Below, piece by piece: positions 46,332 through 62,432 of a DNA stretch of 64,000 nt. The stretch is from Pseudooceanicola sediminis. GTDB lineage: Bacteria; Pseudomonadota; Alphaproteobacteria; Rhodobacterales; Rhodobacteraceae. Below the pieces are notes generated by a model. It did no database searches. It saw only the letters and a list, made by a program, of their open reading frames with translations, and was not told the origin of the DNA. Position 1 is the first letter of the stretch, and the number at the start of each line of letters is the position of its first letter. A program made the position numbers and the translations under genes. The DNA lies in assembly GCF_003575965.1 (NCBI RefSeq), contig NZ_QWJJ01000007.1, forward strand, positions 134,976 through 198,975. The letters run 5' to 3'.

Positions 46332-46516
46332 GGCCACCGCCAGTCCGTCAAGCAGAAACACCATGACATTCCAAGAATGCGTAAAAAAGCCCTATACGCG
46401 CTTTAGCGAGCGCTTTCAGCCAACTCAAGTCTGACAAAAAATTCTGCCCGCGCTGGAGTGCGCGGATCTTTCCCACGTGCTAAGCATCTGAGAGGGCATG
46501 GGAATCGGAGTGACGA

Positions 46517-47287: not shown

Positions 47288-48447
47288 GCCGCGCTGAGCT
47301 TGTCTCGAACGCCTGTGGCGACGATCCGAGCCAATTGGCACGGGACGGCGTTTCCGAGCTGCCGCATCGTCTCCGTCCACGAGCCGTGGAACACCATGTC
47401 GTCGGGGAAGGTCTGCAGGCGAGCGCTCTCTCGGATCGTGAAATAGCGCACCGAGCCATCAGGCCTGCGCAGCATGTTCTCGCCTCCAGGAACACCATGC
47501 ACGCCCGCCTTCAGTGTCTTGCCGGGCTCGTCAAGTGGGCTTCCCGTGTGCCCCGGATAGGAGCGTGCACCGGGTTGAAACCGGTGGTCATGAAAGTCCA
47601 GCGCCGTGCCGGACGCATGTTCCGGATCCGGAAGGTCGGAGATCGCGTCGCGCACGGTCAGCCACGGTTCGTCCAGAGGCCGCTCAGCTATCTTCAAGGC
47701 CCGCGCCTGCGCCGCACCACCATCCGGCCGGTTCTTGCGAGAGACGCGGTGCAGGTCCCAATAGACCTCCTCGCGCCATTGCGACCAGAGCAGCGCGTCC
47801 CGCGAGTGGGTCGGCTTCGGAAAGTGCCACTCGATCTCGGTGTCGGCACGGAACCCGACGAGGAAGATGCGCTCACGTCGCTGGGGGACACCGTAGTTCG
47901 CCGAATTCAGAACCCGCATCACCACTCGATAGTGCAGGCCCTTCTCGGTTCCCTTCGTGTGATGGTTCTCCAGGCGCGCGAGGTGTGCCAGCCATTCTTC
48001 TTCCCTCTTGGCAACAAGATCGGGATAGGTCAGCTGCAGTCGAATGTACTCGAGGTAATTCGCGAAACTGCTGCGCGTAAGCCCCTTTACGTTCTCGAAG
48101 ATGAAAGCCCTAGGTCGAAGCTCGCGCACGGCACGGATGGCCTGCGGGAACATGTCCCGGCTGTCGAGAAATGCGCGGTGGCGTCCGCCCATCGAAAAAG
48201 GTTGGCAGGGCGGTCCGCCCGTAACGAGGTCGACGGAGCCGCCTACGGTCCCAAAATCGAACTGCCGCACATCACCCTCATGAATCGGCCAGTGCGTAAT
48301 TGGATCAAGACCGCGATCTTTGTTCTCGCGGAGAGTGTCGCACGCCCATCGGTCCCAGTCCATGACGGCAGCCGGGCGGAATCCTGCTTGGCTGACGCCG
48401 ATCCCAAGCCCGCCTGCGCCCACGAACAGCTCGACCGATCTCATCAT
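47284..48447 (-). CDS. DNA cytosine-C5 methyltransferase of the Eco29kI-like system
   Basis: A 387-residue C5-cytosine methyltransferase: motif I VELFVGAGGLGIGV, motif IV TGGPPCQPFSMGG (catalytic Cys near residue 79), motif VI FIFENVKGL, motif VIII VPQRRERIFLV, motif IX RESARLQTFPDDM and motif X RQLGNAVPCQLA. It protects the sites cut by the convergent Eco29kI-like enzyme. The ATG at 48447 overlaps the Vsr stop, so it is the last gene of the leftward five-gene unit that starts with the paraMORC gene. A longer in-frame start at 48525 lies inside Vsr. Confidence 0.92.
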   Translation of the reverse strand: MMRSVELFVGAGGLGIGVSQAGFRPAAVMDWDRWACDTLRENKDRGLDPITHWPIHEGDVRQFDFGTVGGSVDLVTGGPPCQPFSMGGRHRAFLDSRDMFPQAIRAVRELRPRAFIFENVKGLTRSSFANYLEYIRLQLTYPDLVAKREEEWLAHLARLENHHTKGTEKGLHYRVVMRVLNSANYGVPQRRERIFLVGFRADTEIEWHFPKPTHSRDALLWSQWREEVYWDLHRVSRKNRPDGGAAQARALKIAERPLDEPWLTVRDAISDLPDPEHASGTALDFHDHRFQPGARSYPGHTGSPLDEPGKTLKAGVHGVPGGENMLRRPDGSVRYFTIRESARLQTFPDDMVFHGSWTETMRQLGNAVPCQLARIVATGVRDKLSAA

Positions 48448-48860
48448 CCCAGGAACTCCCCGATCCTTGCCTGCAATTCCTCTCGGTTTTTTGTTTGGCA
48501 TTCCCATATCACGAGGACGTCCCAACCGAGTTCTGCGAGCAGGACGATATTACGCTCGTCCCGTTTCCTATTTGTTTCCAGCTTCGGGCCCCAAAAGTCC
48601 AGCCTGGATTTCGGGAGTCTCGCCAGCGGGCACGCCGGATCTGGGTGTCGGTGCCAAAAACAGCCGTGCACGAAGATTACCTTTCTTCGAGCCGGAAAGA
48701 CTAGGTCAGGCTTCCCGGGCAGGTCATGACGATGAAGCCTGTAGCGATAGCCCATACCGTGGACCAGGCGGCGCACCAGCAGCTCCGGCTTGGTGTCACG
48801 GCCGCGGACCCGGCTCATGCGCTCGCTTCGCTGTTCTGGCGTCAGTGTATCCACGCGCAT
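48444..48860 (-). CDS. vsr: Very short patch repair endonuclease Vsr
   Basis: A 138-residue Vsr nickase: RSERMSRVRGRDTKPELLVRRLVHGMGYRYRLHR (core RGRDTKPEL), then LPGKPDLVFPARRKVIFVHGCFWHRHPDP with the catalytic Asp and Phe-Trp wedge-type residues, and DVLVIWECQTK. Vsr repairs T:G mismatches produced by deamination at 5-methylcytosine sites, so its place next to a cytosine methylase is expected. The stop overlaps the methylase start. Confidence 0.95.
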   Translation of the reverse strand: MRVDTLTPEQRSERMSRVRGRDTKPELLVRRLVHGMGYRYRLHRHDLPGKPDLVFPARRKVIFVHGCFWHRHPDPACPLARLPKSRLDFWGPKLETNRKRDERNIVLLAELGWDVLVIWECQTKNREELQARIGEFLG

Positions 48861-48915
48861 CCTTATAATGGCACGCAGAGTGGACCGACAAGAAGAACTT
48901 CCGAACTCATACTAG

Positions 48916-49437
48916 TTAGTCCAACCAAATCAGGCGCTTGATGCCAATTTTGTCCGCCGCGCTTTCGACGACTGCGCGCTGGGTTGCCATCCCGAACTTT
49001 GCTGAAGATTCGGTCAGCACAGCTGCAAAAGGCTCGCTATTCTCGAAAGCACGCTCATGCAGGGCCATCAACGTTGCCTTCCAGTCAGCTGCCTTGCTCC
49101 AAGCGATCTGGCGCCCATCGGGGAGAAGGCAGCCGTGCGGTTTAATGAAAGTCGCGCTGACCTCTGCACCCTCGTCAATCCCGAGCACCCGGAATACGCG
49201 CGCGGGGTTGGCTGAGGCCTCCCTAGTGTATGACTTGAGGAGCGTATCCTTGATATAAACGCGAACTTTTCGCGGGTCCATGTACTGACCCAGCCTTCCG
49301 CCAATACTCTCCGTCTCGGTCCACACCGAGTAGTAACGCGACTTATCGGTAGCCGAAAGCGCCGACCAATTGAGCCGATCAGCTTCTGCCCACAGGTGCT
49401 CCTTGATCTCGCTTCGAACGCTCACGGGCACCCTCAT
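48916..49437 (-). CDS. 173-aa protein coupled to the Mrr-helicase gene
   Basis: A 173-residue protein (VPVSVRSEIKEHLWAEADRLNW, MDPRKVRVYIKDTLLKSYTRE, WSKAADWKATLMALHERAFENS). I do not recognise a named family. It is basic in the middle and beta/alpha mixed. The ATG overlaps the helicase stop (ATGA) and it is followed by Vsr after 56 bases. Its constant coupling to the paraMORC and Mrr-helicase genes suggests a subunit or effector of that complex. A diverged nuclease cannot be excluded. Confidence 0.6.
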   Translation of the reverse strand: MRVPVSVRSEIKEHLWAEADRLNWSALSATDKSRYYSVWTETESIGGRLGQYMDPRKVRVYIKDTLLKSYTREASANPARVFRVLGIDEGAEVSATFIKPHGCLLPDGRQIAWSKAADWKATLMALHERAFENSEPFAAVLTESSAKFGMATQRAVVESAADKIGIKRLIWLD

Positions 49438-51107
49438 TGCACGCCTCCCGGCTGGGGTGCGGCTGGAAACTCAAACTGCGGAACTTCTAACTGCGCGTCA
49501 CCCTCGCGCAAAATCAAATCCGCCTGATCCTTCATCCATTCGAGCATGAAATTTCCTGCCGATGCGTCGCGGAAATTGATGAGATTGTGTCCGAGAGGCA
49601 GCCGCTCGACAGGACCCGCAGCGGCCTTTTCAAGTTCGATCACTTCCGCCACTCGACGCAGATCGGTCACGAAATCCATCACGATTACCTTGTCTTTACC
49701 GTGGCTCAGGCGAAGCCCCCGGCCAAGCTGCTGGACAAAGATCCGACGGCTATGCGTCGCGCGCATGAAGACAATTAGATCAACATCAGGCACGTCAACG
49801 CCTTCGTTAAACAAATCAACACTGGACAATACATCGATGTCCCCTCGTCGGAACATTGCCATAAGTCGATCGCGCTCGCGGGCTTCCTGCCTCGACGAAA
49901 TAGATTCAGCGCGCAATCCGTAACCACGAAGTGTTCCCGCGAAACTCTCAGCGTGATCAACCGTTGGAGAGAACACAATCCCACCCCGCCGCTTCTCGCT
50001 GCGGAAAGCCTCGACAATGTGCCTGGCCGCCTCATCGTCGCGAGTTGGCATCAAAAGCTTCCTGTTCAGTTGGTTTAGAGAATAGTTGTGCGAAGAGATT
50101 TCCTGTACAAACTCCCAGTCGACGTTGTCTGCCAACAGCCGATAATCGACCTCGCAAAGGTATTTCTGCCTCAGGCCGTCTGAGATACCGAGCCGAACAA
50201 GCGGCTTGCCCAATAGCTCATCGATGTCGAAACCATCGCCGCGCCACGGCGTTGCCGTTGCTCCACCGACCATAGGTGGCTCAAGAGCAGCGAGCGCACG
50301 CCGAAAACTAGCGGATCCGATATGATGCGCCTCATCGACAAGCACCAAGCCAAAATTTGGCAAATCATCGACACGTCCAATGATGCTTTGGACCGTCGCG
50401 AAAGTGATTCCATCGTAGAAAGATGGGGTCTCATCGCCCGAAAGCATATGCGTTGGAACCCACTTGGGCAGCTGATGCCAAAATCCGAATTGTAGCTGTC
50501 GAATGAGCTCACGTTTGTCGGCGAGAACGAGCACCCGGTTTTCGCGAATGAGGCCATCACGATAAAGATCCGCAACAACTTCCGCCATTACCACGGTCTT
50601 GCCTAAACCCGTTGCAAGCACGACTTGAGCGCGACCCGTGTCCGTGAGGCCTTCGCGAAATCTATCGACTGCCTCTTGCTGATATGGCCTTAGATCCCTT
50701 CTCGACTTAGGGTACTCGGGGACTTCTTGAGCAAGGTGCGCAAGACGAGCTGGATCGAGTAATTCGACATTGATCCCTATCCGGCGGAAACGTTCGATTT
50801 CGGCTAGGACTCCACCACCGACCGCGCGTGAAGTCGCCAGAAGCATACGGTTGGCACCATAGTATGTTCCGGCATCGACAACTTCTTGGACGGCATGTTT
50901 CGTGGGCGGGGCGGTCGTGGTGTGTTTGCACTGCACAACCCAAATCTCACCGTTTTTCACGCCAACGACATCTGCGCCTTTGTCGCCCGAACCACCAACA
51001 ACGCGCACATCATCGAAGCCTGCATGCATCAAAATTCTTGCAACATCGCGCTCAAACGCTTGCCATGGGCCACGTAGGAGTCGCCTGTCGTCAAGAAAGT
51101 GCGTCAT
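49434..51107 (-). CDS. Mrr-type nuclease fused to DEAD/DEAH helicase
   Basis: A 557-residue two-domain protein. Residues ~15-125 are an Mrr-like restriction nuclease: FERDVARILMHAGF, GDKGADVVGV with Asp46, and VVQCKH with Gln59 and Lys61, the PD-(D/E)-(D/E/Q)-x-K active site. Residues ~138-500 are an SF2 helicase: RPYQQEAVDRF, Walker A ATGLGKT (165-171), LVDEAHHIGS, GATATPWRGDG and a C-terminal QLGRGLRLSHGKD. The fold is that of type I/III-like restriction motors. It is coupled by ATGA overlaps upstream to the paraMORC ATPase and downstream to the 173-aa gene. Confidence 0.88.
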   Translation of the reverse strand: MTHFLDDRRLLRGPWQAFERDVARILMHAGFDDVRVVGGSGDKGADVVGVKNGEIWVVQCKHTTTAPPTKHAVQEVVDAGTYYGANRMLLATSRAVGGGVLAEIERFRRIGINVELLDPARLAHLAQEVPEYPKSRRDLRPYQQEAVDRFREGLTDTGRAQVVLATGLGKTVVMAEVVADLYRDGLIRENRVLVLADKRELIRQLQFGFWHQLPKWVPTHMLSGDETPSFYDGITFATVQSIIGRVDDLPNFGLVLVDEAHHIGSASFRRALAALEPPMVGGATATPWRGDGFDIDELLGKPLVRLGISDGLRQKYLCEVDYRLLADNVDWEFVQEISSHNYSLNQLNRKLLMPTRDDEAARHIVEAFRSEKRRGGIVFSPTVDHAESFAGTLRGYGLRAESISSRQEARERDRLMAMFRRGDIDVLSSVDLFNEGVDVPDVDLIVFMRATHSRRIFVQQLGRGLRLSHGKDKVIVMDFVTDLRRVAEVIELEKAAAGPVERLPLGHNLINFRDASAGNFMLEWMKDQADLILREGDAQLEVPQFEFPAAPQPGGVQ

Positions 51108-53497
51108 GCAGAGATCTCAACATCTGGTTTCAATAGCTCCAGAGACATTACAGCCCGAATGACCTCACTCCGTGAACTGCTGGCAAGATCTCCGCTGTCT
51201 TGCTTGGAGAGCCAAACAGCGTCGTCAATTAGAGCAAGATAACGCGACAAGACACCAGCGCGTGCTTCTGCGGTGATTTGCGGGTCGCCGTAATCGAGGT
51301 CAGCGTAAGGGGAATCCCAAAGCTTGCCATCGAAGCATAGGTCCGGCCGTTTCTCAACGGCAATTCGAACAATTTCGAGTGGCCCAGAAAGAAGGAAACT
51401 ACCATTCACCGTGGCCTCGGAAGGCTTGATTTTTTTTGCTGCCAACGCGCGCATAACCGCAGTCTGCTCATCCACGCCTAAGTCATTGAACAGAGAAGCG
51501 CGTTCCTCCTCAGGACAAACCGAAACAAGACAACGAGCCACATCAACTAGAACCGACGTGGCAGTATTGGGCAATGCCTTTAGGTCAAGAGCCGTCTCTT
51601 CCCCATAGGCGTCCCGAAAATCCGCGAATAATTGAGCAAAGTCGGGCTGTTGGCTAGAGTTGCGAGTCTGATCCGCAGTCATGTAAGCGAGATGCGCTAG
51701 GAGCGCGTCCCTTGGTGTCATTGTGATTGATTCAAAGGTTTTGTGTGCAGGATTGAAAAGAAAATGATGGGTCTTCGTCGTCACGTCACCCATAATCATG
51801 GCCCACGGAGCATCTCCCGCTAAATCGGGGTCCTTGGAGTCGACCTCATATGCGACGACATTCCATTTCATGCCAGTACCGTCATGTTGATACCGGCGAC
51901 TAAGGAGTGGCGCTTCTCGACGCTCCGGTGCTGCGGCCTTCTCTGGCTCGGGAGGCGTTGCCGGATCTGGATCAGGCGTATCGCCGCCGGATGTTGCGCC
52001 GCCGAGGAGGCCTGGCGGAAGTTGTGCATCGCCACCAGATGTCGGTTCCTTGCCCCCAGTTGCTCGTCCGCCGGCGCCGTAGAGCAACTCACGGTCAGCG
52101 GCCTCAACGAGCTCCCACCATTTACTGTCGTCCTGATAGTCAGGATTGCCATCGTGGAAGGCATTGACCATTTCGACGGCGCGAGCGTTGTCCTTGACGA
52201 TCAAAATTCGTCCGTAGGCGCCTGCAGTCTTGGAGTGAGGACTCGTCCGTCGGAAAGCTTTAAAAAGTCGAAAGAGCGGTGATTCATTTGGGCCATAGCC
52301 AAGATCTTTAGCTTTTTCAGGACGAAGCGGCCCCTCTCCTCGGATGACTCTATACATTTCATCCCATGTCGGATCTGCACGATCAAAACGATCTTTAGCA
52401 TAGCTGACCCGGCAATGATCAATGTGGATCTCACCAACTATGCGGCCTCGGTTTCGCTGATCGTCAATCGGGTACTCCCGCTCTTCATTTTCCCCATCGC
52501 TCCAGGAAAAAAGGTCCTTGTTCCCAATCTCAATTTTTCGCCCATTGCGAACAAAATCGATACCGAACTCGGACTGGTCGAGATATCTCTGAATTCCCAG
52601 CCACCCCGTAACCTTGCGTTTACGTTCGACTACAGACTTAGCGGTTTCGCAATTCGGACATGTTCCGCCCACTTCCGCATCTACGAGCCAACTCATGCAA
52701 TTGATGCAGTACAATCTGGCTGCGAGTTCATGATTGATACTGATAACTGCCGGAATATTTGTTCCACCGGGCCCGGGAACAACCCGATCTTCATTCCACA
52801 GGCAATGACGTCGCGCCTCGACGCGCTTGTGGTTCACATAGAGCTCGAAACTGATTGGAATTCCGTTCGGCCGAAGCATCGAAGAGTAAGCTTGCGAGAG
52901 CCGTTTGCGTATTGCCGTTTGATTCGCGTTTTTTGCGAGCCATTTTCTTTGCTCTGGCTTGAGTTGCTTGATCGTAATCTCGGTACCATGTTGATCGGGA
53001 TCGGCCTTTGCGCGCGACAAACGCGGCGTCCGAAAGTGACGCTGCAGACGCAACTTGTCGAAATCGATCAGGAGTCCGTGCCACTCACGCTCACCCTTAC
53101 GCGTAGTCCAAACTTCGGTGACCGAACCAAGACGAGCCGTGGCGATGTTGAAGCCCATGCCAAACAGCCCAAGGCTATCGATTGGATTATTGCCTGACCA
53201 ACCGGCGCGTACGGCGCGTTCCAGCATATCTGGTGTCATGCCGGGACCATTATCGATAATCCGAAGTGTCGCTCCAGGTGAGTCCGCTTGCGGCAAGTGG
53301 ACATCGACCTTTGCACCAGCGACCGAGTTTCCAGCACGTCCTTCTTTCAAAAAGCCGTCAACTGCGTTGTCGACGAGTTCTGCAACGCAGCGCCACTGAT
53401 CGATGTTGATCTCGCCGAGCATCGGCAATACGCGCGGATCAGGCTCGAGATTGAATTCGCTCGCCGGCCGCAGATCGTTCACATTGATGCTCGCCAT
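51104..53497 (-). CDS. paraMORC-type GHKL (HSP90/MutL-like) ATPase
   Basis: A 797-residue GHKL ATPase. ATP-lid motifs: Glu40 and Asn44 in AELVDNAVDG, DNGPGM at 82-87 and GLFGMGFN at 110-117. Behind the transducer-like part is a zinc ribbon CINC-x12-CPNC (Cys264, 267, 280, 283). The C-terminal third is helical with an acidic Pro/Gly linker near residue 510-540. It resembles bacterial paraMORC/MutL-like ATPases reported in restriction-modification operons. Such ATPases are thought to form DNA clamps that control nuclease action. It heads the five-gene leftward unit; divergent from a nuclease-like gene. Confidence 0.85.
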   Translation of the reverse strand: MASINVNDLRPASEFNLEPDPRVLPMLGEINIDQWRCVAELVDNAVDGFLKEGRAGNSVAGAKVDVHLPQADSPGATLRIIDNGPGMTPDMLERAVRAGWSGNNPIDSLGLFGMGFNIATARLGSVTEVWTTRKGEREWHGLLIDFDKLRLQRHFRTPRLSRAKADPDQHGTEITIKQLKPEQRKWLAKNANQTAIRKRLSQAYSSMLRPNGIPISFELYVNHKRVEARRHCLWNEDRVVPGPGGTNIPAVISINHELAARLYCINCMSWLVDAEVGGTCPNCETAKSVVERKRKVTGWLGIQRYLDQSEFGIDFVRNGRKIEIGNKDLFSWSDGENEEREYPIDDQRNRGRIVGEIHIDHCRVSYAKDRFDRADPTWDEMYRVIRGEGPLRPEKAKDLGYGPNESPLFRLFKAFRRTSPHSKTAGAYGRILIVKDNARAVEMVNAFHDGNPDYQDDSKWWELVEAADRELLYGAGGRATGGKEPTSGGDAQLPPGLLGGATSGGDTPDPDPATPPEPEKAAAPERREAPLLSRRYQHDGTGMKWNVVAYEVDSKDPDLAGDAPWAMIMGDVTTKTHHFLFNPAHKTFESITMTPRDALLAHLAYMTADQTRNSSQQPDFAQLFADFRDAYGEETALDLKALPNTATSVLVDVARCLVSVCPEEERASLFNDLGVDEQTAVMRALAAKKIKPSEATVNGSFLLSGPLEIVRIAVEKRPDLCFDGKLWDSPYADLDYGDPQITAEARAGVLSRYLALIDDAVWLSKQDSGDLASSSRSEVIRAVMSLELLKPDVEISA

Positions 53498-53522
53498 TAC
53501 ACTGATTCCCCATTAACCTCAG

Positions 53523-53539
53523 GATATTCATTCAATATC
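53523..53539. promoter_or_regulatory. Inverted repeat in divergent promoter region
   Basis: GATATT and AATATC face each other across a five-base spacer (CATTC) in the 91-base gap between the divergent paraMORC and nuclease-like genes. It is A+T rich against GC-rich surroundings. The dyad is a plausible operator that could couple both directions; no known regulator is matched. Confidence 0.5.
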
Positions 53540-53588
53540 TCCGTACGATATGGAGGCCTCAGGTTGAACACAAGCGAAGGAAGAAGAT

Positions 53589-54290
53589 TTGACTGTAGGT
53601 ACTCCAGTTCCCACGACTTCGGAACTCGAAGACTACCTCGAGCGCCTGCGGCCGACAGTAGACGAGACGATCGACAGGCTAGGTGCAACCCGCTTCCGGG
53701 AAGATCCCATCGCGGGTAGAAAGTACTCCCGTGCGACCTCGATTATCAGCTCAGCCTACAAAAGACATGGCGCCATCCTTCAAAGGGCCCTACTTGAGCG
53801 GCTTAAGGACTGCGCAAGGTTGCGCGTTTGGACAGAGGACGACTTCAAGCTTTCACATGACACACTCCGGGAGGTCCGGATCGCGGAGCGGCTAGACTCC
53901 TTGTTGCAAGCGCACCTTCCGTATGGAGATCGTGAACGCTCCGTGCGCGTCGACATCTTGGTATTCGACGAGGTAAGTCGCTCCCTAAACGCCTACAATG
54001 TCAAACGCGGCAACGGCTCATACGATGGAGGAAAGCGGCGCCTTATTCACGAAGAGCTCGTCCGCACCCAGATGCTTCTCAGCGATTACGGCCGCGGGCT
54101 TGGGCTCTGGTCGGAGACGAGCAATGCTCACGTCATCTTCTACTACGGCCTTCTATCGCTACCACCGCCACTTGCGATCTCTGGTTACGATCTCGACGAG
54201 CATTTCCAATTTCCTGTCCATGAGGCAATCGAACTCGTTAACGCCTATTTCGTTGCGCGGTTATCAGCGCTCATCGAGCAGGAAGACTAG
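53589..54290 (+). CDS. Putative PD-(D/E)XK-like protein divergent from the paraMORC operon
   Basis: A 233-residue protein from a TTG start preceded by AAGGAAG. Its first ~100 residues are helical (ELEDYLERLRPTVDETIDRL). The middle contains SVRVDILVFDEVSRSLNAYNVKRG, which has the D-x(n)-x-x-K layout of a PD-(D/E)XK nuclease core (Asp in VDILVF, Lys in NVKRG), followed by helices KRRLIHEELVRTQMLLSDYG. The assignment is by pattern only and the first acidic residue could be a false match. It shares the operator-like gap with the paraMORC gene, so it may be part of the same system. Confidence 0.55.
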   Translation: MTVGTPVPTTSELEDYLERLRPTVDETIDRLGATRFREDPIAGRKYSRATSIISSAYKRHGAILQRALLERLKDCARLRVWTEDDFKLSHDTLREVRIAERLDSLLQAHLPYGDRERSVRVDILVFDEVSRSLNAYNVKRGNGSYDGGKRRLIHEELVRTQMLLSDYGRGLGLWSETSNAHVIFYYGLLSLPPPLAISGYDLDEHFQFPVHEAIELVNAYFVARLSALIEQED

Positions 54291-54949
54291 CCCCACCAAT
54301 GTTATAGGTAGCTCCGTGCGCACGTTGCTCGGTCCCCGATTGCGGTTCGATCCCAGTCCTATTTGAATAGGTGGGACCAAGATCGGAAACATTTCTTGCC
54401 GCACTCTTTTCCCGTTTTCTTTCAATGTCTTGGAAGAAATTCACCAAACCAATGCAGTTAACAGGTCCGGAGAATTTCGGGCCGAGAGAACGCTTTCGGG
54501 TCTCCTGACACCTGTGGCGGTGCCTAGCCTGCCCCGCAAACCCCTTTGAAAACACGAAAAAATCCAGCCGCAGCCGAATCGAGAGAACGCTTTCGCGGGG
54601 GCAAGTGGCGGAGGAGGTGGGATTTCGCGCCCTCGATAGACCCTTTATTTGCAAGACATGAAATAGAGGTGTGCGCCATTTTGTGACCCAATTTGTGATC
54701 CAATTCTGATACCTTTATGTTACGGCACCTCACATAATCTGCAGGACATTCATCTCTATCCGTCAGCACCTCGCGCGCGTTCAGGTTCTCACGCCCTACA
54801 GGCGTCGATGGGCTGCTTGAGCGAAATTCGACATTCGATCATTTGCCTCTTTACTGCGCAGCGCCAGCAGACCGGGCGGAGAGCAGAAGTTCGCTGCAAT
54901 GCAGCCGAAAGACTGGATGTTTCACCAAAGCGGACATTTAGGCTTCCTC
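54291..54949. other. Long non-coding gap with duplicated 16-mer
   Basis: About 660 bases without a supported gene. It contains two copies of CGAGAGAACGCTTTCG (54483-54498 and 54580-54595), 97 bases apart; part of each (CGAGAGAA/CGCTTTCG) is an imperfect inverted repeat. A+T content is higher than in the phage blocks. The frames that cross the region lack a plausible protein. Possible uses are a boundary between cargo pieces, an att remnant or a regulatory region for the following operon. Confidence 0.4.
54483..54595. repeat. Direct repeat pair CGAGAGAACGCTTTCG
   Basis: Exact 16-base copies start at 54483 and 54580. Each contains an inverted core (CGA-GAG-AACGCTTTCG with CGA...TCG ends), so a dyad-binding protein or a recombination remnant are both possible. 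Nothing else in the window repeats this unit that I could see. Confidence 0.55.
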
Positions 54950-54978
54950 TTGAAAGCGTATCGTAGAAAGCAGATACT
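54950..54978 (+). promoter_or_regulatory. Putative promoter of the TS-like/pyrophosphorylase-like operon
   Basis: TTGAAA at 54950-54955 and GATACT at 54973-54978 are separated by 17 bases, 27 bases before the GTG start at 55005. GAGG lies at 54991-54994 as a possible ribosome site. Both boxes are partial matches to sigma-70 consensus. Confidence 0.45.
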
Positions 54979-55004
54979 CAATCGACAGATGAGGTTGAGC
55001 GATA

Positions 55005-56081
55005 GTGTTTCATGCGAGTGAGGATAGTCTAGACGACCTATTGAGGGCCGTTTTCAAGCAGCTGCTCACAGGGCGCGGGAATTTTGAAGTCGAATCCAGC
55101 AAAGGTAGAAGCACTGAGGTCTTCGGTGCGCTCTTAGAGCTCAAGAACCCGCGCGCGCGACTAAGCAGATCGTTTTCGAAAGCTAAAGCCTTTAGTCCAC
55201 TTGGCGAGTTGTTTTGGTACTTGGCGGGCAGCGATAGCGTCGATTTCATCAAACACTACATCCCCAACTATCCAAAACTGATAAAAGACGAAGTTACTGC
55301 AAATGGGGCCTACGGACCGCGAATATTCGGAAAAGGGGCACTAGAAAAGCGTGACGAAGTTAGCGAGTGGGATCGGGTGATCCGTACTTTGCGTGAGCGA
55401 GAGGGCTCGCGCAACGCAATAATACAGATTTACGCTAACTCCGATGCTAGGCCCGAGAACGGCGACAAGCCTTGTACCTGCACCATTCAATTTGCGGTTA
55501 GGAATGGGCAGTTGTTGATGCACACGCATATGCGGTCCAATGACGCATTCTTCGGCCTCCCGCACGACATTTTCACTTTTACTATGCTTCAGGAGGTTGC
55601 GGCTCGTGAACTTGGGTTTGGGCTGGGTAAGTATACCCATTCTGTGACAAGCCTACACTTGTACCATGACTATGCGGCAACTGAGGGTCGCCCAGCGAAC
55701 ACTTCAACATCTGGCGCCAAAGCGTACTACAGGGAGGGTTTCCATGATTTCTCGCCAATGCCTGAAATGCCATCAGGAGACCCATGGCCGAGCATAGAAA
55801 AGGTAAAAATGGCAGAGCAAGAAATCCGATCTGGCAACATCGAGTACATCGCTCCAACAGACCTTGATCCGTACTGGCGCGACTTCATTGAGCTTTTCAG
55901 AATCCACAAAATATTTGAGGAAATGAAGAAGCGCGGAGATGGCCTTAGAACCGAGAGGCCCGAGCTGCGCAGAGTTGTGAAGGTCATGAAAGAAACTTCA
56001 CCGACCTATCGGATCTACATCCTCGGTAGGCTCGAAAGAAAACAATCCCCCGTTAGGGATCTATTTGAGAATGTAAGTTGA
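55005..56081 (+). CDS. Thymidylate synthase-family protein with Asp at the dUMP-selecting site (dCMP hydroxymethylase-like)
   Basis: A 358-residue ThyA-fold enzyme starting at GTG, longer than the usual ~264. Catalytic Cys157 lies in DKPCTC; Arg177 and Asp180 in MRSNDAFF bind phosphate; His218 and Tyr220 lie in SLHLY. ThyA has GLPFNI at the substrate base; here it is GLPHDI, so the Asn that selects dUMP (Asn177 in E. coli numbering) is Asp188. That change is the known mark of dCMP hydroxymethylases. ELFWYLAGS and NGAYGPRI align to the ThyA core. The enzyme probably hydroxymethylates or methylates a pyrimidine nucleotide. The second gene of the operon follows 10 bases later. Confidence 0.78.
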   Translation: MFHASEDSLDDLLRAVFKQLLTGRGNFEVESSKGRSTEVFGALLELKNPRARLSRSFSKAKAFSPLGELFWYLAGSDSVDFIKHYIPNYPKLIKDEVTANGAYGPRIFGKGALEKRDEVSEWDRVIRTLREREGSRNAIIQIYANSDARPENGDKPCTCTIQFAVRNGQLLMHTHMRSNDAFFGLPHDIFTFTMLQEVAARELGFGLGKYTHSVTSLHLYHDYAATEGRPANTSTSGAKAYYREGFHDFSPMPEMPSGDPWPSIEKVKMAEQEIRSGNIEYIAPTDLDPYWRDFIELFRIHKIFEEMKKRGDGLRTERPELRRVVKVMKETSPTYRIYILGRLERKQSPVRDLFENVS

Positions 56082-56091
56082 GAGGTGGGTC

Positions 56092-57030
56092 ATGAACGGT
56101 GTCCACAAAGACAGAATAGACGAGTTCCTCGGAAAGATTGGCCAGATTGACGCGCAATTTGGCCCACTCCCCAGTATTGCAACAGCCCAGCGGAGACGTT
56201 GCTGGGCGCAACAAATCGTGTCCAGCCTACGTCGAATTTCATATACAGACACGTTGTTGATGCGTAGAGTGAATGCGGCGAGGTGTGATCCGCATTCCGG
56301 TATTTTCGACCCGGTACGAGGGGCGCTTCACTTTCAGAGAAGCGGACAACTCGATGAAGCGGTCTGGTTAACTTTCGTCCTCACCCATTTTGGAAAACAC
56401 GCGGTAGATGAATGGAAGCTGGCTGCAAATGTCTATGGTTCGTTTAGCGTGGGACCAGTTTGGACGTTCGCACAGTATACTGCAGACCGTGCAGGGTTCG
56501 AGAACATGTTGGCCGCAAACTCTGGCCGGTTGGCGGACGCCAACATTTCGGGTAGTTTTTCTAACCACCGCAAATTTCAGAGCAAGAAACATCAAGCCAT
56601 AGCGAAGACGTTTCGCACGTACTATGAGTGGCAGACTGAGTTCGGCGGATTTCGTGATCGAATGATCGCGACACATGCAAGTTTCGGTCAGGAACCCGAA
56701 GCGGCTTTCGATGCTCTCTACAAGTCCATGAAGGGGGTTTTTGGCTTCGGTGGAGGACGCCTCGGAAGGTTCGATTTCCTTACGATGCTCGGCAAACTTC
56801 AGCTTGCTCCGATTACACCAGGCAGCGTCTACTTGGATAAGGCAACAGGACCTCTTGCAGGGGCACGGCTTCTGTTTTTCGGTGATCGCGACCATCACAT
56901 TACCGGTAGAGCCTTGGAGCCTCACGTTGATGCCTTGGACGGGGTTCTTGGCGTGGGAAAACAGGTGATCGAAGACAGCCTTTGCAATTGGCAAAAAAGC
57001 CCTGATGTTTACGAGTATTTCCGAGGTTGA
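56092..57030 (+). CDS. Alpha-glutamyl/putrescinyl-thymine pyrophosphorylase clade 3-like protein
   Basis: A 312-residue helical protein. The pattern FDPVRGALHFQRSGQLDEAVWLTFVLTHFGKHAVDEWKL (core DEAVWLTFVLTHFGKH, residues ~84-99), then GPVWTFAQYTA, FSNHRKFQSKK, FDALYKSMKGVFGFG, RFDFLTMLGKLQLAPI and a final DSLCNWQKSPDVYEYF, matches my memory of aGPT-PPlase clade 3, proposed by Iyer and Aravind to transfer groups onto hydroxymethyl-uracil pyrophosphate in phage DNA. It follows the TS-like gene by 10 bases. Catalysis here is unproven; clade 3 members could act on nucleotides rather than DNA. Confidence 0.68.
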   Translation: MNGVHKDRIDEFLGKIGQIDAQFGPLPSIATAQRRRCWAQQIVSSLRRISYTDTLLMRRVNAARCDPHSGIFDPVRGALHFQRSGQLDEAVWLTFVLTHFGKHAVDEWKLAANVYGSFSVGPVWTFAQYTADRAGFENMLAANSGRLADANISGSFSNHRKFQSKKHQAIAKTFRTYYEWQTEFGGFRDRMIATHASFGQEPEAAFDALYKSMKGVFGFGGGRLGRFDFLTMLGKLQLAPITPGSVYLDKATGPLAGARLLFFGDRDHHITGRALEPHVDALDGVLGVGKQVIEDSLCNWQKSPDVYEYFRG

Positions 57031-58133
57031 GAAGGGACCGGCAGTTTAGTGCTCCCTTCCCATTTGTAACGGCGCTTTAGATCATTAAATTGGTGGGGCT
57101 GGAGCGCCCCAGCTTTTTGAAGCTGTCCGACAATAATTCCCGGTGTGACCCCGGCTTTTCGAGCGATTCTCCGTACATGAGGACGGGTCGGCATTGCGTT
57201 TAACATCTCATCTCGCAAGTCAGCCGAAACAAGCGTATCTTGAGCGAAAATGTCAGCTTCGCCTTCGAATACAGACGCTCCTAGCGGTGACGGATCAGCG
57301 CCATCCACCGAAATGTGGTCAGTGCCATGCAGAACCACGTGTGCGGCCTCGTGGAAAAAAGTGAACCAAAAATGGTCTTCACTTAAATAGCGAAAGCTTA
57401 GCAAGATAATCGGGTTGCCGTTTGGGGATGTCCAAGTGGCACCGCTTGCTCTACAACCTTTCGGGGCCTTCGAGCTTACCAGGCCAACACCTTCCTCAGC
57501 GCAAGCTTGCTGCAGTTTTGGAAAGAATAACTCCGGGCGCTTGAGCGCACATAGCTTCTTCAACTCAGTCAGACGTTTCTTGAAATTGCTCGCGGAAAAC
57601 TTCGCCAAGGTCAGGTTTTCAGCTTGCATCTCTCCGATACGCAGCCAGGCCAAAGTCGCCATCTCGTCGGCCTCAAAGGCAAAAGATGTTCGAAATGCAA
57701 CTTGGCCTATCCCAGCGGAGTACCGCTGGTTCCAACCGCTGATGCTATCGCATCCAAAAAAGTTCAGGATGTCCTCGGATAGACGCTCACCGCGAGAGCC
57801 TTTCGGCAGCCAACCGAGTTCTCGGAGGGCTCGAACTGGAAACGACTGCCCCCACCTAGACAACTCTTCGGTTGGCGCAGAACCTGCAAGCCGCGCTCTA
57901 TCTCCCAGAAACTGGTTATAGCGTTCAATCCAGAACTGGCGTGATGCACCAAGCTCCGAAGATAGGGCGTCTGCGATTTCTTCGGAAATCACAACGCGCC
58001 CTTCCATTATTCCAGAAAACAAGTCTTCTTCGAACCCGATGCGTTCGGCCAAATCGTGAATTGATTTTTTTCCAGCCGCAGCCAGCCTTGCGATTGTGTC
58101 GCCCGGTGGGGAAGCCCAGTTTGGTTCAAACAT
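57009..58133 (-). CDS. HTH-ImmA/IrrE metallopeptidase
   Basis: A 374-residue protein starting at ATG 58133. Residues ~1-90 are a HigA-like HTH (ARLAAAGKKSIHDLAERIGF). Residues ~250-300 carry the zinc motif FFHEAAHVVLHG (HExxH) with EGEADIFAQD as the third-ligand segment, typical of ImmA/IrrE (DUF955) peptidases that cleave repressors. The C-terminus has a second helix-turn-helix-like segment (HVRRIARKAGVTPGIIVGQL). It converges with and overlaps the pyrophosphorylase-like gene by 22 bases, and its start overlaps the RelE-like stop (TGATG). It forms a candidate toxin-antitoxin or induction switch with that gene. Confidence 0.85.
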   Translation of the reverse strand: MFEPNWASPPGDTIARLAAAGKKSIHDLAERIGFEEDLFSGIMEGRVVISEEIADALSSELGASRQFWIERYNQFLGDRARLAGSAPTEELSRWGQSFPVRALRELGWLPKGSRGERLSEDILNFFGCDSISGWNQRYSAGIGQVAFRTSFAFEADEMATLAWLRIGEMQAENLTLAKFSASNFKKRLTELKKLCALKRPELFFPKLQQACAEEGVGLVSSKAPKGCRASGATWTSPNGNPIILLSFRYLSEDHFWFTFFHEAAHVVLHGTDHISVDGADPSPLGASVFEGEADIFAQDTLVSADLRDEMLNAMPTRPHVRRIARKAGVTPGIIVGQLQKAGALQPHQFNDLKRRYKWEGSTKLPVPSQPRKYS

Positions 58134-58483
58134 CAAGCAAACACCTCCCCTTCAATTACGATAGCTTTCAGGTGGATTCGATGAGCATCTTTCCACGCTT
58201 CGTCTCCAACGCCGGATGCAGCTATCACCGTCTTCAGTGTGCAGCCAGTGGATACGAACCAGTCCAGCTCAAAGGTGCCTTCTACTTTCGTCGCCGAAAG
58301 CGGTCCCATAGGTACGTCACCGGCAAAGAACGCCGCCCTGAAATCCGCCACCAAACCAATGAACGCCTGACCGTCCTCACTTCCGAGGTGACGGTAGGCT
58401 TTCTTGCGTTCTGTTGCCAAGTCCCTCATGAGCTTGCTCGAAAAAGTCGGTTCCAAGGATCCAGCATCCCAAAAGTTGCACAA
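58133..58483 (-). CDS. RelE/HigB-like toxin candidate paired with ImmA/IrrE protein
   Basis: A 116-residue protein from a TTG start (an ATG at 58429 is an alternative). The layout FSSKLMRDLATERKKAYRHLG, FIGLVADFRAAFFAGDVPMG, VEGTFELDWFV and IHLKAIVIEGEVF (beta-alpha-beta order) resembles RelE/HigB toxins, although catalytic Arg/Tyr residues are not clear. The gene is directly upstream and coupled to the HTH-ImmA/IrrE gene, the usual HigBA-like order with the antitoxin second. mRNA interference is inferred. Confidence 0.5.
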   Translation of the reverse strand: MCNFWDAGSLEPTFSSKLMRDLATERKKAYRHLGSEDGQAFIGLVADFRAAFFAGDVPMGPLSATKVEGTFELDWFVSTGCTLKTVIAASGVGDEAWKDAHRIHLKAIVIEGEVFA

Positions 58484-58995
58484 AATGGAGCCTTGGAAGG
58501 CACGTCGCTTACAATATCTTCCCAGCAGTCATACATGCAGCGGGTGTAGCGGGCGTGGTCGCGAAAGTCACTAGCGAACTGTCGTGCGGATAGGACCCGC
58601 TGGCAACATCTGCCACACTGATCTGTTTGGGAACGATGCGCAGAGTGGCTCAATGCCGATGCTGACCAAGGAAAGGGGCTCGATGCGCGAGCGCCTCCGG
58701 ATGTACCTGATGGACTATCAGCTCTATGCGGGCCTCTTCAGTTGCAGGGCGTGCCGCGCTTCCTTCTCGGCGGCTGTATCCTTCACCCTGTACAAGGCGC
58801 GCGAGGTTTCTGCGCCGTCGCCAATTCTGGGTAATGCTGCGCAGTGTCTATACGACTGCTATAGAGGAGCTGGAGCGCAGCATTATGATCCTCCGCGAAG
58901 GTCAGCTCTGGGCCGGTCGTGTCGTTCAGCCACGATAAGGCTCTGCCGATCAGCGCACCCGCTCCCTGTGTATTCGGAGCGTGTCGTCAAGTTAG
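58484..58995. other. Gap with no supported gene between cargo island and second prophage
   Basis: About 510 bases. A rightward frame from 58650 (MLTKERGSMRERLRMYLMDY) changes frame near 58790 into RRRQFWVMLRSVYTTAIEEL, which could be the remains of a small gene broken by a frameshift, but neither part matches a family I know. The border of the second prophage probably lies here. Confidence 0.3.
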
Positions 58996-59015
58996 GCGGG
59001 GCGTTTCCGCCCCGC
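58996..59015 (-). terminator. Hairpin after the second lysis cassette
   Basis: Eight GC-rich base pairs (GCGGGGCG / CGCCCCGC) with a GAAA loop on the reverse strand, starting six bases after the stop of the lipoprotein gene. The position fits the end of the leftward late operon. The T-run is weak. Confidence 0.55.
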
Positions 59016-59020
59016 TCAAG

Positions 59021-59203
59021 CTACCGGCAAGCGCCGGTCATGGCTGCATCGGTGACAGCAACCCAAGCGCCGAGGGACGTGTCGGGCAGCGGGCGGGGCA
59101 TATGGCTGCGCTCGGCGCCATAGGTCTGGCATCCGGCCCCGCTCGGGATCTCCGGCGCACAGGCGGCAAGCGCCAGAACGATCAGCACCGCACCGCACCT
59201 CAT
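59021..59203 (-). CDS. Small lipoprotein, o-spanin (Rz1)-like, second lysis cassette
   Basis: A 60-residue lipoprotein: hydrophobic signal VLIVLALAAC with the lipidated Cys at residue 15, then a polar tail ending VAVTDAAMTGACR, similar to the tail of the lipoprotein at 10802-11044. The ATG at 59203 overlaps the stop of the preceding coiled-coil membrane protein (ATGA), so the pair is coupled. A TTG two codons upstream is an alternative start. It is predicted to sit in the outer membrane and complete lysis. Confidence 0.65.
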   Translation of the reverse strand: MRCGAVLIVLALAACAPEIPSGAGCQTYGAERSHMPRPLPDTSLGAWVAVTDAAMTGACR

Positions 59204-59427
59204 TTCCAAGCCTCATCATTCTGGCGTGCGATCTGTTCGGGCGACTGATCGGAGCGCAGAGCGTCGGCTGCTGCCGCCCTGCCCCGATCCGCCCGGTGAT
59301 CTGCCTCGCGCGCCTGGTCGAGCCGCGCCGAGCGGCGGCCGCCCCGGCGCGCGGCGACCACGGCCGCCATCACCAGGGCCACGCCCGCCACCAGCTTCAG
59401 CCAGATCCGCGACAGCAGCGCGCTCAT
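59200..59427 (-). CDS. Small membrane protein with coiled coil, i-spanin (Rz)-like, second cassette
   Basis: A 75-residue protein with one N-terminal membrane helix (IWLKLVAGVALVMAAVVAA) and a charged Arg/Asp/Glu/Ala helical tail ending IARQNDEAWK. The topology is that of an inner-membrane spanin. The start ATG at 59427 overlaps the stop of the upstream small membrane gene; its stop overlaps the lipoprotein start. Unlike the first cassette, the two spanin-like genes overlap by only four bases. Confidence 0.65.
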   Translation of the reverse strand: MSALLSRIWLKLVAGVALVMAAVVAARRGGRRSARLDQAREADHRADRGRAAAADALRSDQSPEQIARQNDEAWK

Positions 59428-59633
59428 GTCGTGCCGCCCTTCTTCTTCACGATGCGACTGGCGGCAAAGGTGCCACCAAAGACCGACAGCCCCGCCAGCA
59501 CCTCGACCAGCGGTTCGATCTGAATGGTCAGCGTCCCGGCCTCGGGATTGAACGTCGCCCATCCCTGCCCGGCCACGAAGGCCCCGCCGAGGTAAAGCGC
59601 CATGCGAATGAACAGGCCAATGCTTCCAGCCAT
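59424..59633 (-). CDS. Small membrane protein, holin-like
   Basis: A 69-residue protein with two hydrophobic helices (SIGLFIRMALYLGGAFVAG and VLAGLSVFGGTFAASRI) and a Lys-rich C-terminus (VKKKGGTT), typical of small holins. It lies between the GH108 muramidase and spanin-like genes. Coupled by an ATGA overlap to the next gene. Confidence 0.6.
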   Translation of the reverse strand: MAGSIGLFIRMALYLGGAFVAGQGWATFNPEAGTLTIQIEPLVEVLAGLSVFGGTFAASRIVKKKGGTT

Positions 59634-59663
59634 GTGAGTGTCTCCTTTCTGAAGGTGTTGAGA

Positions 59664-60326
59664 TCAGGCGACGGCGCGCACGCCGAACAGCTGCGCCAGG
59701 AACGCGGCAAGGGGCGAGCGATCCGCCGGGCGGGCTTTGGCCGGGGCGCTTTGCATCGGCGCCGGGATGATCACGGCCGCGCGCGCCAGACGGGTCGCAC
59801 GATCAAGTACGCCGCAGTCATCGGCTTGCGCGCCCGCGTTCTTGCCGATGACCCGCACCGACCAGCCCGCGCCGAAGGTGCGCCAGGTCCGCAGCCCACG
59901 CAGGAAGCGCATGCGCCGGGCACAGAGCGCGGCAATCACCGCCTCGACGTCGGCGCCATTGGCGGCCGCCAGCGTCTGCGCGCCGACAATCCCGTCGACC
60001 GAGACCCCCAGCACCCGCTGCAGCTCCCTGGCCGCGTGCCCCACGCCGGAGTTCACCGCGTAGTCGCCAACGCAGTAATCAAGCCCAGTAGGCAGCAGAT
60101 CCGCCCCCACCTTGTCGAGGTATTGGTGCGCGATGATCGCCTCGGCCTCGGCCTTCGGGATCCCGCGCACCGGGCGCAGACGCTGGCCGTGCATCCGGTT
60201 CCAGGCATCAAAGGTGCCTTGGGTGATGCCGCGATCCGTCGCGCCGCCAGGATCGTCGGGATGATGCACATAGCCCCCCTCCGACAGGCCGATCCAGGAT
60301 TGGATAAGCTGATAGTTCTTCCGCAT
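59664..60326 (-). CDS. Phage endolysin, GH108-type muramidase
   Basis: A 220-residue endolysin. The N-terminal GH108 domain begins WIGLSEGGYVHHPDDPGGATDRGIT (core EGGYVHHPDDPGG, catalytic Glu near residue 15) and includes YCVGDYAVNSGVGHAAREL, where the second half resembles a peptidoglycan-binding fold (QTLAAANGADVEAVIAAL core TLAAANG). The C-terminus is Pro/Ala-rich. It replaces the GH24 lysozyme of the other prophage, showing that this is a separate phage. The ATG at 60326 follows a good ribosome site (GGAGACAG). Confidence 0.88.
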   Translation of the reverse strand: MRKNYQLIQSWIGLSEGGYVHHPDDPGGATDRGITQGTFDAWNRMHGQRLRPVRGIPKAEAEAIIAHQYLDKVGADLLPTGLDYCVGDYAVNSGVGHAARELQRVLGVSVDGIVGAQTLAAANGADVEAVIAALCARRMRFLRGLRTWRTFGAGWSVRVIGKNAGAQADDCGVLDRATRLARAAVIIPAPMQSAPAKARPADRSPLAAFLAQLFGVRAVA

Positions 60327-60344
60327 TTCTGTCTCCTTCAAAGC

Positions 60345-60370
60345 AAAAGGCCCCGGAGTTTCCGGGGCCT
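60345..60370 (-). terminator. Rho-independent terminator
   Basis: On the reverse strand a nine-base-pair GC-rich stem (GGCCCCGGA / TCCGGGGCC) with a three-base loop is followed by TTTTGC. It lies between the coiled-coil membrane gene and the muramidase gene, so it may separate structural from lysis transcription or attenuate it. Confidence 0.75.
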
Positions 60371-60400
60371 TGGGTCAGGGTGTTGCGCGGGCGGGGTGTA

Positions 60401-60712
60401 TCAGGGCGGTCGGTCCAGGAGCGTCGCTGCCGCCGCGACCAGACAGCCCGCGATCAGCCAGATCGCCTTGTCGAGCGCGCGAAAGAAGATCCCGCGTCCG
60501 ATGCTGAGACGTTCCAGCAGCACCACTTTCTCCGTGAGGATCGCCTGATCGTGCTCATGCTTGCGGGCCAGCAGGCCCTGGTCCCGGTCATAGCGCTCCA
60601 TCCGCTTGAACAGCGTCACCAGCTGTTCCTGCATCCGGGCCTGCTGGACCACCACGTCAGACAGCTTGTCGAGCGTCTGTTCGATCCGTTCCAGCCTCTG
60701 CTGATCTGACAT
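60401..60712 (-). CDS. Coiled-coil protein with C-terminal membrane helix
   Basis: A 103-residue protein: heptad-rich coiled coil (RLERIEQTLDKLSDVVVQQ, LVTLFKRMERYDRDQGLL) followed by one membrane helix (AIWLIAGCLVAAAATLL) and a short tail. Such small proteins occur next to lysis genes in Rhodobacterales Mu-like or GTA-like prophages. The start ATG at 60712 excludes an Arg-rich upstream extension. Function unknown. Confidence 0.65.
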   Translation of the reverse strand: MSDQQRLERIEQTLDKLSDVVVQQARMQEQLVTLFKRMERYDRDQGLLARKHEHDQAILTEKVVLLERLSIGRGIFFRALDKAIWLIAGCLVAAAATLLDRPP

Positions 60713-60765
60713 GCACATGCCCCCAAGTGTCTGCTGAGTGTCTGCCCCCCTGCCCCGAACGGCTG

Positions 60766-61191
60766 TCAGGCAATGCCGGGGCGCATGAGTGTGGCCTGCA
60801 CGGTGAGGCTTGAACCATCCTCCCCGCTGGATTGATACGCGGGCCGCGCGGCGACCTCGGTATAGGCCTGCCAATCGTCAGGTCGGGACTGCACGTCGGC
60901 ATAGACCGCATCTACCGTATCGAGACCCGTGTAGGGCGCGCGGCCGAGGACCCGAACACCTTCAAGTGTTTCCCATGCGGGCACCTCATCTTCCCGCAAG
61001 TGAACGTAGCAGATGAAGGCCTCGCCGCCTGGCTGGTAGACAGCGGGCGTTCGCGCAAGACCGACGACCCGCGGTGTTTCGAACCCGTTTTCGTCGCTGG
61101 GAAGGGCCACGTATTGGGGCATGGAAGAGAGGAGACCCGCGAGGAAGGTGGCTTCGTTTTCGCCGCGCACGAGAGCTGCTGTGAGGGTCAT
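60766..61191 (-). CDS. Phage protein of unknown function beside head-spike genes
   Basis: A 141-residue protein (TAALVRGENEATFLAGLLSSM, FICYVHLREDEVPAWETLEGVRVLG core EDEVPAWETLEG, DDWQAYTEVAARPAY). It is acidic and beta/alpha mixed without a family I recognise. It overlaps the head-spike fibre gene by four bases, so it is probably co-translated with it, and may be an assembly chaperone for the fibre (inference). Confidence 0.6.
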   Translation of the reverse strand: MTLTAALVRGENEATFLAGLLSSMPQYVALPSDENGFETPRVVGLARTPAVYQPGGEAFICYVHLREDEVPAWETLEGVRVLGRAPYTGLDTVDAVYADVQSRPDDWQAYTEVAARPAYQSSGEDGSSLTVQATLMRPGIA

Positions 61192-62432
61192 TGGGCAGTC
61201 CTCGCCTTCATGGCTTCAACTGGCACGGAGGCAGGATAAAGACCAAGCCCCAAGACGCTCGTGTTCCGGACAGATAACTGACCGGGGAACGCATCTGCAA
61301 TCCGCAGCGTGGTGGGAGCTGCGTATCCTGACGGGACGTTGGCGTCCCATAGGGTGCCGTTGAGGACGAGCGACAGGTTGCCCGGAGAGAAGCGGCACGC
61401 TATCGAATACTCTGCGGGTAGGCTATAAGGGCTGACAGCAGAAGCGTAGCCCCCACTATAGAACTGACGTGCTTGAGTGCTGGAGCCAGATAGCACCGTA
61501 ATGAGACGGTTGACCTCTTCGGACCCTCCGTCGAGCTCGAACAACCTGTCACCCGAGAGTAATTCACCCCACAAGAGCCCGTCCAGAACGAGCCAAAGCC
61601 CATCGTCCAGGTCAAACTCGGATATGTCTGAGAGCGGGTGGTCACCGGCGCGAGTAACTGCCCCACTGGTCGTGTCGATGTAAGAGGACGCCGCGTTGTT
61701 TTCTTCCAGCTGGGCACCCCACACCGCCACCGAACCGTAGGAAGCTGGAACTCCGATGAACGATCTGTGTGGGTAAACACGCACGTTCTCGCATCCCTCG
61801 GGTACTACAAAGGTGCACGCCACGCGTGCCCACCCGTTAGCCAACGTCTGCGTTACGTATGCGTCAGATACAACGGGATGGACAATGAAGGACGCGTCGG
61901 TGTTGTTGTACACAGCCAGATAGTTGATCGAAGTCCCTTTCTTGACGTAGTAGCTGAACGTAAGGGTCGTCCCAGCTACCACAGACAGGGATTGTTGATA
62001 CAGGATGCCGGTGGAAGACCCGGTTACATTCAGGCTATCCGCCAGTGTAACGCCATCAGGGGAGACAACCGAATTAGGGGTCACGGTCATGCCGTTAGCC
62101 TTTTCCCATATATCGTTGGTGTAGTCCTTAGAGTACAGCACAGTGTTGGTAGCGGTATTCTCGACCAAAAGGCGGCGCTTTCCAGTCCGCCAGTCGAACC
62201 TGGGCTCGTTGATAGGAGCTGTACCTACAGTCAAATCCTCGGCCACGTACCGAGCAGCCCCGGCTCGCGTGAACGAGAGGTTCTTGAACTGCGTGACCGG
62301 CTGTCCGTTACGAGCATATCGTCCATTCTCGAAGTCGGCGTACCACAAGGGGGCCACGCCGTTGATGGCGCCAAACCCGTTTCGCAGCGCGGTCATCCCG
62401 AAGTTATTCGCGGCGAAGAGCATCAGACCCAT
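61188..62432 (-). CDS. Head spike fibre protein
   Basis: A 414-residue fibre. The N-terminal part (LWYADFENGRYARNGQPVT, LVENTATNTVLYSKDYTNDIWEKANG core NTATNTVLYSKDY) and a beta-rich body with repeated Thr/Ser/Asn strands (GTTLTFSYYVKKGTSINYLA core TFSYYVKKG) match head spike fibre domains; the RCAP_rcc01079/01080-type pair forms capsid spikes in RcGTA. The C-terminal ~150 residues resemble a carbohydrate-binding tip. A+T content is visibly higher than in neighbours, as for many receptor-binding genes exchanged between phages. Confidence 0.78.
   Translation of the reverse strand: MGLMLFAANNFGMTALRNGFGAINGVAPLWYADFENGRYARNGQPVTQFKNLSFTRAGAARYVAEDLTVGTAPINEPRFDWRTGKRRLLVENTATNTVLYSKDYTNDIWEKANGMTVTPNSVVSPDGVTLADSLNVTGSSTGILYQQSLSVVAGTTLTFSYYVKKGTSINYLAVYNNTDASFIVHPVVSDAYVTQTLANGWARVACTFVVPEGCENVRVYPHRSFIGVPASYGSVAVWGAQLEENNAASSYIDTTSGAVTRAGDHPLSDISEFDLDDGLWLVLDGLLWGELLSGDRLFELDGGSEEVNRLITVLSGSSTQARQFYSGGYASAVSPYSLPAEYSIACRFSPGNLSLVLNGTLWDANVPSGYAAPTTLRIADAFPGQLSVRNTSVLGLGLYPASVPVEAMKARTAQ

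Follow-up and report, generated by a model that had tools for sequence, protein, structure and literature searches.

The 64,000-nucleotide stretch of DNA analyzed here (the window; Pseudooceanicola sediminis, assembly GCF_003575965.1, contig NZ_QWJJ01000007.1, positions 134,976 to 198,975, forward strand) carries a mobile cassette of four genes arranged in two convergent halves (Table 1). One half encodes an enzyme related to thymidylate synthase (TS) with an active site of the deoxycytidine monophosphate (dCMP) type, followed after 10 bases on the same strand by a protein of the ADDT family, which is also matched by clade 3 of the alpha-glutamyl/putrescinyl-thymine pyrophosphorylases (aGPT-Pplases). 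The other half encodes a helix-turn-helix (HTH) protein with an ImmA/IrrE metallopeptidase domain and a small HigB-like protein. In our judgment there is a little better than an even chance that the cassette is an infection-triggered defense that works through nucleotide chemistry on dCMP or 5-hydroxymethyl-deoxycytidine under PD-lambda-2-like control. A sequence-only reading of this DNA had described the first two genes; the pair is real and lies where that reading placed it, but it is only half of the cassette, and the convergent genes had been missed.

Table 1. Features of the cassette in window coordinates.
Feature	Position	Strand	Description
TS-like gene	55005..56081	+	GTG start, 358 aa; dCMP-type active site E68, R136, C157, S178, D188, H218, Y220
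ADDT / aGPT-Pplase clade 3 gene	56092..57030	+	312 aa; predicted all-alpha fold like that of helix-hairpin-helix (HhH) glycosylases
HTH + ImmA/IrrE metallopeptidase gene	57009..58136	-	convergent, 22 bp overlap with the ADDT gene; HExxH intact
HigB-like small gene	58133..58456	-	107 aa from the start chosen in close relatives; overlaps the ImmA gene by 4 bp
Candidate sigma-70-like promoter of the TS-like gene	54950..54978	+	TTGAAA-17-GATACT, at the left edge of the common cassette
Cassette extent	54947..58832	.	about 90% nucleotide identity with loci in other named genera; sharp ends on both sides

The TS-like protein matches the Pfam family Thymidylat_synt (PF00303) with 74.8 bits (E = 8.1e-21), and all seven NCBIfam thymidylate synthase equivalog models that it matches stay under their cut-offs (20.7–68.7 bits versus 108–427). 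Its closest solved structure is MilA, a cytidine monophosphate (CMP) hydroxymethylase (E = 1.2e-43), whereas the top chain called a thymidylate synthase is found at 1.6e-14. Alignment with the dCMP hydroxymethylase gp42 of phage T4 pairs D188 with D179, S178 with S169, R136 with R123, C157 with C148, E68 with E60, H218 with H216, and Y220 with Y218, which bears out the dCMP-type signature proposed by the sequence-only reading. All 106 TS-like sequences compared, each from an unbroken gene (the window, 75 genomic, 22 from viral contigs, 7 from plasmids, and 1 from the same genus), have Asp at residue 188, whereas the homologue from phage PaMx11 has Asn. S178, C157, E68, H218, and Y220 are likewise invariant in this set, and R136 is Arg in 103 sequences and Lys in 3. 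The MilA study associates Asp at this site with cytosine substrates and reports that Ala176 and Lys133 favor ribose where Ser and Arg favor deoxyribose. The cassette enzyme thus shares with T4 gp42 and MilA the TS superfamily, the base-recognition Asp (D179 in T4, D186 in MilA), and the catalytic Cys, Glu, His, and Tyr, but it has the Ser/Arg pair of T4 rather than the Ala176/Lys133 of MilA, which prefers CMP. It is also about 110 residues longer than gp42, whose dCMP activity is only predicted for it. By neither the residue at the base-recognition position, which would be Asn, nor the equivalog scores does the protein belong with the thymidylate synthases (ThyA), and it carries the residues of a dCMP-type hydroxymethylase (Asp at T4 D179, the equivalents of Ser169 and Arg123, and the catalytic Cys, Glu, His, and Tyr). 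Because these active-site residues are conserved, we predict with some firmness that it acts on dCMP.

Assignment of the second protein to aGPT-Pplase clade 3, also proposed earlier, is supported: it matches PF18746 (aGPT-Pplase3) at E = 6.3e-85 (285.4 bits; curated cut-off 25) and PF18724 (ADDT) at E = 8.6e-80 (268.2 bits; curated cut-off 26.2), and its top structural and family match is a transferase. Comparison of the family with nine phage sequences by hhalign gave 72% (E = 3.4e-5, run without a shuffle control), and a weak first test before this larger set, against PUGT alone, gave 2.4%. PUGT is gp46 of PaMx11, a 5-PmdU glycinyltransferase, and this phage has relatives of both the TS-like and the ADDT protein plus a 5-hydroxymethyl-deoxyuridine (5-hmdU) kinase. 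In this phage ADDT/aGPT-Pplase pathway, the locus encodes a TS homologue of the dUMP type (Asn) and a protein with the helical domain of 5-hmdU kinases; the cassette instead has an enzyme of the dCMP type, no kinase among its four genes, and the additional ImmA/HigB-like pair. A dUMP-type partner, as in phage thymine hypermodification, is found in none of the 106 sequences.

The ImmA protein matches Peptidase_M78 above its curated cut-off and HTH_31 below it, and HExxH is kept in 108 of 108 intact relatives. Its top PADLOC match is PD-Lambda-2_B (PDLC03982; E = 2.9e-27). The HigB-like family aligns with 17 HigB sequences at 95% probability by hhalign (E = 3.3e-8), with 20 column shuffles giving at most 1.42%; an earlier comparison with four HigB sequences, including what was evidently a wrong open reading frame (ORF), had given a weak 21.6%, and the protein itself matches no PADLOC family at E 0.1. 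The pair resembles PD-lambda-2 in its HTH-ImmA B component and probably in the HigB-like A; in that system, as described by Vassallo (2022, PMC9519451), B is toxic and A rescues. It differs from PD-lambda-2 in that the effector half is a pair of nucleotide enzymes and the layout is convergent. No match to a model of C, the component that PD-lambda-2 needs for defense, was found among the four cassette proteins, other genes of the window having been scanned incompletely.

The arrangement recurs across relatives. Among 204 relatives confirmed in genome contigs we kept the best 80, picked by closeness to the query, and added 25 viral-contig loci from IMG/VR (including the window itself and some near-duplicates), 7 plasmid loci read of 8 records matched, and 3 loci read from Escherichia coli. 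The TS-like gene lies upstream of the ADDT gene in 80/80, 25/25, 7/7, and 3/3 of these, respectively, and the recurrence on which the earlier proposal of a coupled pair depended thus holds. The convergent ImmA gene is present in 78/80 genomic, 24/25 viral-contig, and 7/7 plasmid loci, and the HigB-like gene in 76/80 genomic and 22/25 viral-contig loci. Where either is absent, the locus ends within 1,200 bases of the ADDT gene in all cases but one (L020), which has a truncated ADDT gene and no ImmA gene in the next 2,500 bases. A less biased Pfam-wide draw found PF18746 in 4 of 398 genomes of the phylum, with all four genes in 3, and in 2 of 61 relatives (own genome counted in both); the locus recorded as L152 and L216 is a complete cassette. 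An optional fifth gene, encoding a protein with a uracil DNA glycosylase (UDG) fold, is joined to the cassette in 20 of the 80 genomic loci and is absent from the other 60 and from the window. This fold was assigned with larger sets or fold models, a first hhalign comparison with 12 UDGs having given 0.36%.

The four genes move together as a mobile cassette of about 3.9 kb between very different bacteria. The window shares this length with four loci (L011, L012, L013, and L014; named as Pseudoprimorskyibacter, Pseudooceanicola, Jannaschia, and one Rhodobacteraceae) at 89–90% nucleotide identity, with shared boundaries at 54939–54978 and 58788–58832. No other match to window positions 46000–62000 was found at E 1e-3 in L011–L017 and L019. 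The cassette has a G+C content of about 0.52, similar to the 0.54 of the genes to its left and lower than the 0.61–0.69 of most of the remaining window. Of 5426 complete E. coli genomes, 231 give a match and 226 contain 80% or more of the cassette in its E. coli form; all 240 placements are chromosomal. The three E. coli loci read have type I restriction-modification (R-M) and MazG-like genes nearby, one also has a dGTPase-family gene, and the SCU-152 copy adjoins integrases and tRNA-Sec.

The surroundings of the cassette are rich in defense genes. Among 142 ORFs near 33 cassettes (from 256 candidate ORFs; the 33 of 80 loci were picked by name as alphaproteobacterial, L043 being labeled only Proteobacteria), 56 PADLOC models were matched at 1e-20. 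The first 25 models listed bear 13 names, including oligonucleotide cyclase, 2TM effector, GajB, HamB, AbiEi, SspA, PD-T4-6, and HerA, and each such named model was matched by a single flank ORF. Control regions (133 of 163 ORFs, 20 regions, nine genomes of the genus of the window) yielded one PADLOC model, matched by three members. Neighbor ORFs were called on length alone, so false ORFs occur in both sets, and some matched names, such as DndA and WYL, could stand for relatives with housekeeping roles. Phage integrases, with 5 of 142 ORFs, are the Pfam family seen most often around the cassettes.

Nucleotide-based defense, one of the options raised by the sequence-only reading, stands as our leading idea. 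The TS-like enzyme would convert dCMP and methylene-tetrahydrofolate to 5-hydroxymethyl-dCMP, or to 5-methyl-dCMP. The ADDT protein, judging from its fold, family, and synteny, would then process this product as a nucleotide or in DNA, either by attaching an amino compound to it or by cleaving off the base, and the UDG-fold glycosylase would join the effector half in a quarter of genomic loci. The net result would be that the deoxycytidine supply of a replicating phage is corrupted or drained. The HTH-ImmA peptidase and its HigB-like partner would keep the effector half switched off until infection sets it free; for such triggering, and for protection itself, the likeness to PD-lambda-2 and the defense-rich surroundings are the grounds. 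A more specific form of this proposal, to which we give only tentative credence, is an immune system that makes hydroxymethyl-dCMP, further processed by an enzyme with an amino-acid-transferase or glycosylase fold, so as to poison viral DNA synthesis conditionally, with an ImmA/HigB-like pair as the switch. In phages, both enzyme families serve to decorate the phage DNA and so shield it from host defenses; the bacteria here hold a cytosine-directed version as a mobile unit with a toxin-antitoxin-like switch amid defense genes. If this is defense, the chemistry of an arms race has been reversed, and a new mode of poisoning viral DNA synthesis could be tested at once because 226 of the complete E. 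coli genomes carry the cassette. If the poison proposal is true, the cassette would be the deoxynucleotide counterpart of the makers of antiviral nucleotides, built with enzymes otherwise known from DNA-decorating phages.

Several points weigh against the proposed defense. The dCMP substrate, the succession of the reactions, control by the ImmA pair, and phage protection are all inferred. Hydroxymethylation and methylation are indistinguishable from sequence. The defense richness of the flanks is relative to one control set from one genus. No operator common to both cassette promoters was evident on search. By tblastn, relatives of the cassette ADDT were found in 0 of 50,697 phage genome records, and no particular phage is tied to the cassette. 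One genome (G133; locus L217, also L154) has an orphan ADDT-family gene (L217:1651-2559) with no TS-like or ImmA gene within 1,650 bases upstream, where the contig ends, or 9.4 kb downstream. Phage ADDTs work together with a 5-hmdU kinase; Pfam finds no kinase among the four conserved cassette genes, and, in agreement with the sequence-only reading, no match to PF18723 or PF18748 was found in the own genome by a search run without a positive control. Because the kinase that phage ADDTs need was not found, the cassette ADDT may use a different leaving group or be a glycosylase.

Base-excision defense is the alternative that survives best, and we nevertheless consider it unlikely. Here the ADDT and the optional UDG-fold protein would remove hydroxymethylcytosine from phage DNA, like Brig1 and Brig3 on modified cytosine, and the TS-like enzyme would supply hydroxymethyl-deoxycytidine to phage DNA, with only a phage kinase able to activate it. 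The Brig1 and Brig3 papers (PMC11078745, PMC13160076) describe DNA glycosylases that remove modified cytosine from phage DNA, Brig1 having a UDG-like fold as does the optional cassette gene, and the words "thymidylate synthase" and "pyrophosphorylase" are absent from their text. Against this alternative, the ADDT protein best matches a transferase, and the UDG-fold gene is missing from most genomic loci and from the window. The idea that Brig1 is itself an aGPT-Pplase relative proved wrong, its top structural matches being uracil DNA glycosylases.

It is quite unlikely that the pair instead hypermodifies host or element DNA that a restriction system then spares, as the sequence-only reading had also entertained. 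The PaMx11 gene set, the restriction-like genes 2–6 kb off in the window, and the type I R-M genes near the three E. coli copies speak for such self-labeling. However, the restriction-like genes of the window (49–54 kb) recur in only 0–1 of 115 loci, and the cassette moves alone, so neither coupling to the adjacent restriction genes nor self-labeling within an R-M pair is supported; the kinase result, with its missing positive control, also argues against it. By tblastn in the 115 loci, the proteins starting at 48916, 49434, 51104, and 53589 gave 0, 1, 0, and 0 matches, the lone match (30% identity over 100 aa) belonging to 49434; sequence to the left of the TS-like gene extends at least 2 kb in 95 of the loci and at least 6 kb in 83. 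Thus, no recurrent nuclease partner is found among the window's own restriction-like genes, and other nucleases were not hunted systematically.

Plasmid or prophage addiction, in which the ImmA/HigB-like pair stabilizes its carrier with the enzyme pair as toxin and phage defense is incidental, is very unlikely in our estimate. The toxin-antitoxin-like pair, the cassettes on plasmids and IMG/VR viral contigs, and the integrases in the flanks fit it, but the exclusively chromosomal E. coli placements and defense-rich flanks do not, and the dCMP-type active site is left unexplained. Most improbable is that the TS-like gene encodes just a spare thymidylate synthase and that its neighbor is unrelated to it: public records annotate the protein as a thymidylate synthase and it is the sole PF00303 protein of its genome, but Asp188 is invariant, MilA is the nearest solved relative, and ThyX is present.

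As to novelty, the earlier statement that no system of this exact pair had been described holds in that no paper on the four-gene cassette was found, judging by titles and abstract openings, and neither the TS-like nor the ADDT protein matches a PADLOC model at E 0.1. It does not hold for the domain: the DefensePredictor study (Science 2026, PMC13092281) lists aGPT-Pplase as a predicted, unvalidated defense domain and includes a validated system with a thymidylate synthase domain, and its Fig. 6F may include the same gene set.

Several minor features of the cassette were noted. The candidate promoter has 9 of 12 consensus matches, and such sites number 2 in the region where 2.7 are expected by chance; the call is made because of placement and conservation rather than count: across 13 aligned sequences, the C, T, T, and G of CTTGAA do not vary, nor do several positions further downstream. 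An alternative start of the HigB-like ORF at 58483 would give 116 aa. Directly upstream of the HigB-like gene, a MazG-like gene occurs in 8 of 111 loci (L105–L107, L110, L111, L113, L114, and L010), and it differs from the gene annotated as MazG-like that adjoins the cassette in the E. coli loci read. The dGTPase-family gene (L193:2446-3678), of the deoxynucleotide (dNTP) depletion type, has an IS3 transposase between it and the E. coli cassette. One cassette (L007) is carried by a Pantoea plasmid that also has genes for a phage portal and tail, and a copy that matches it closely is found on one viral contig, near both contig ends (L101/L102).

Within the window, three overlapping genes of low G+C at 48916-53497 (-) look like a separate defense operon; their products are a small protein, an Mrr-nuclease/helicase whose RadD-like match stays below cut-off, and an ATPase of the GHKL class with weak similarity to BbrUII restriction enzymes. 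The gene at 53589-54290 (+), absent from all 115 cassette loci as given above, encodes 233 aa with no Pfam match. Phage-type genes, judged by eye from translations, flank the island at 5515-40000 and 59664-62432, and IMG/VR lists the region as a virus (L091). At 1574-2220 (-), ARAGORN predicts a permuted tmRNA whose tag is unusually long; the element may have integrated there.
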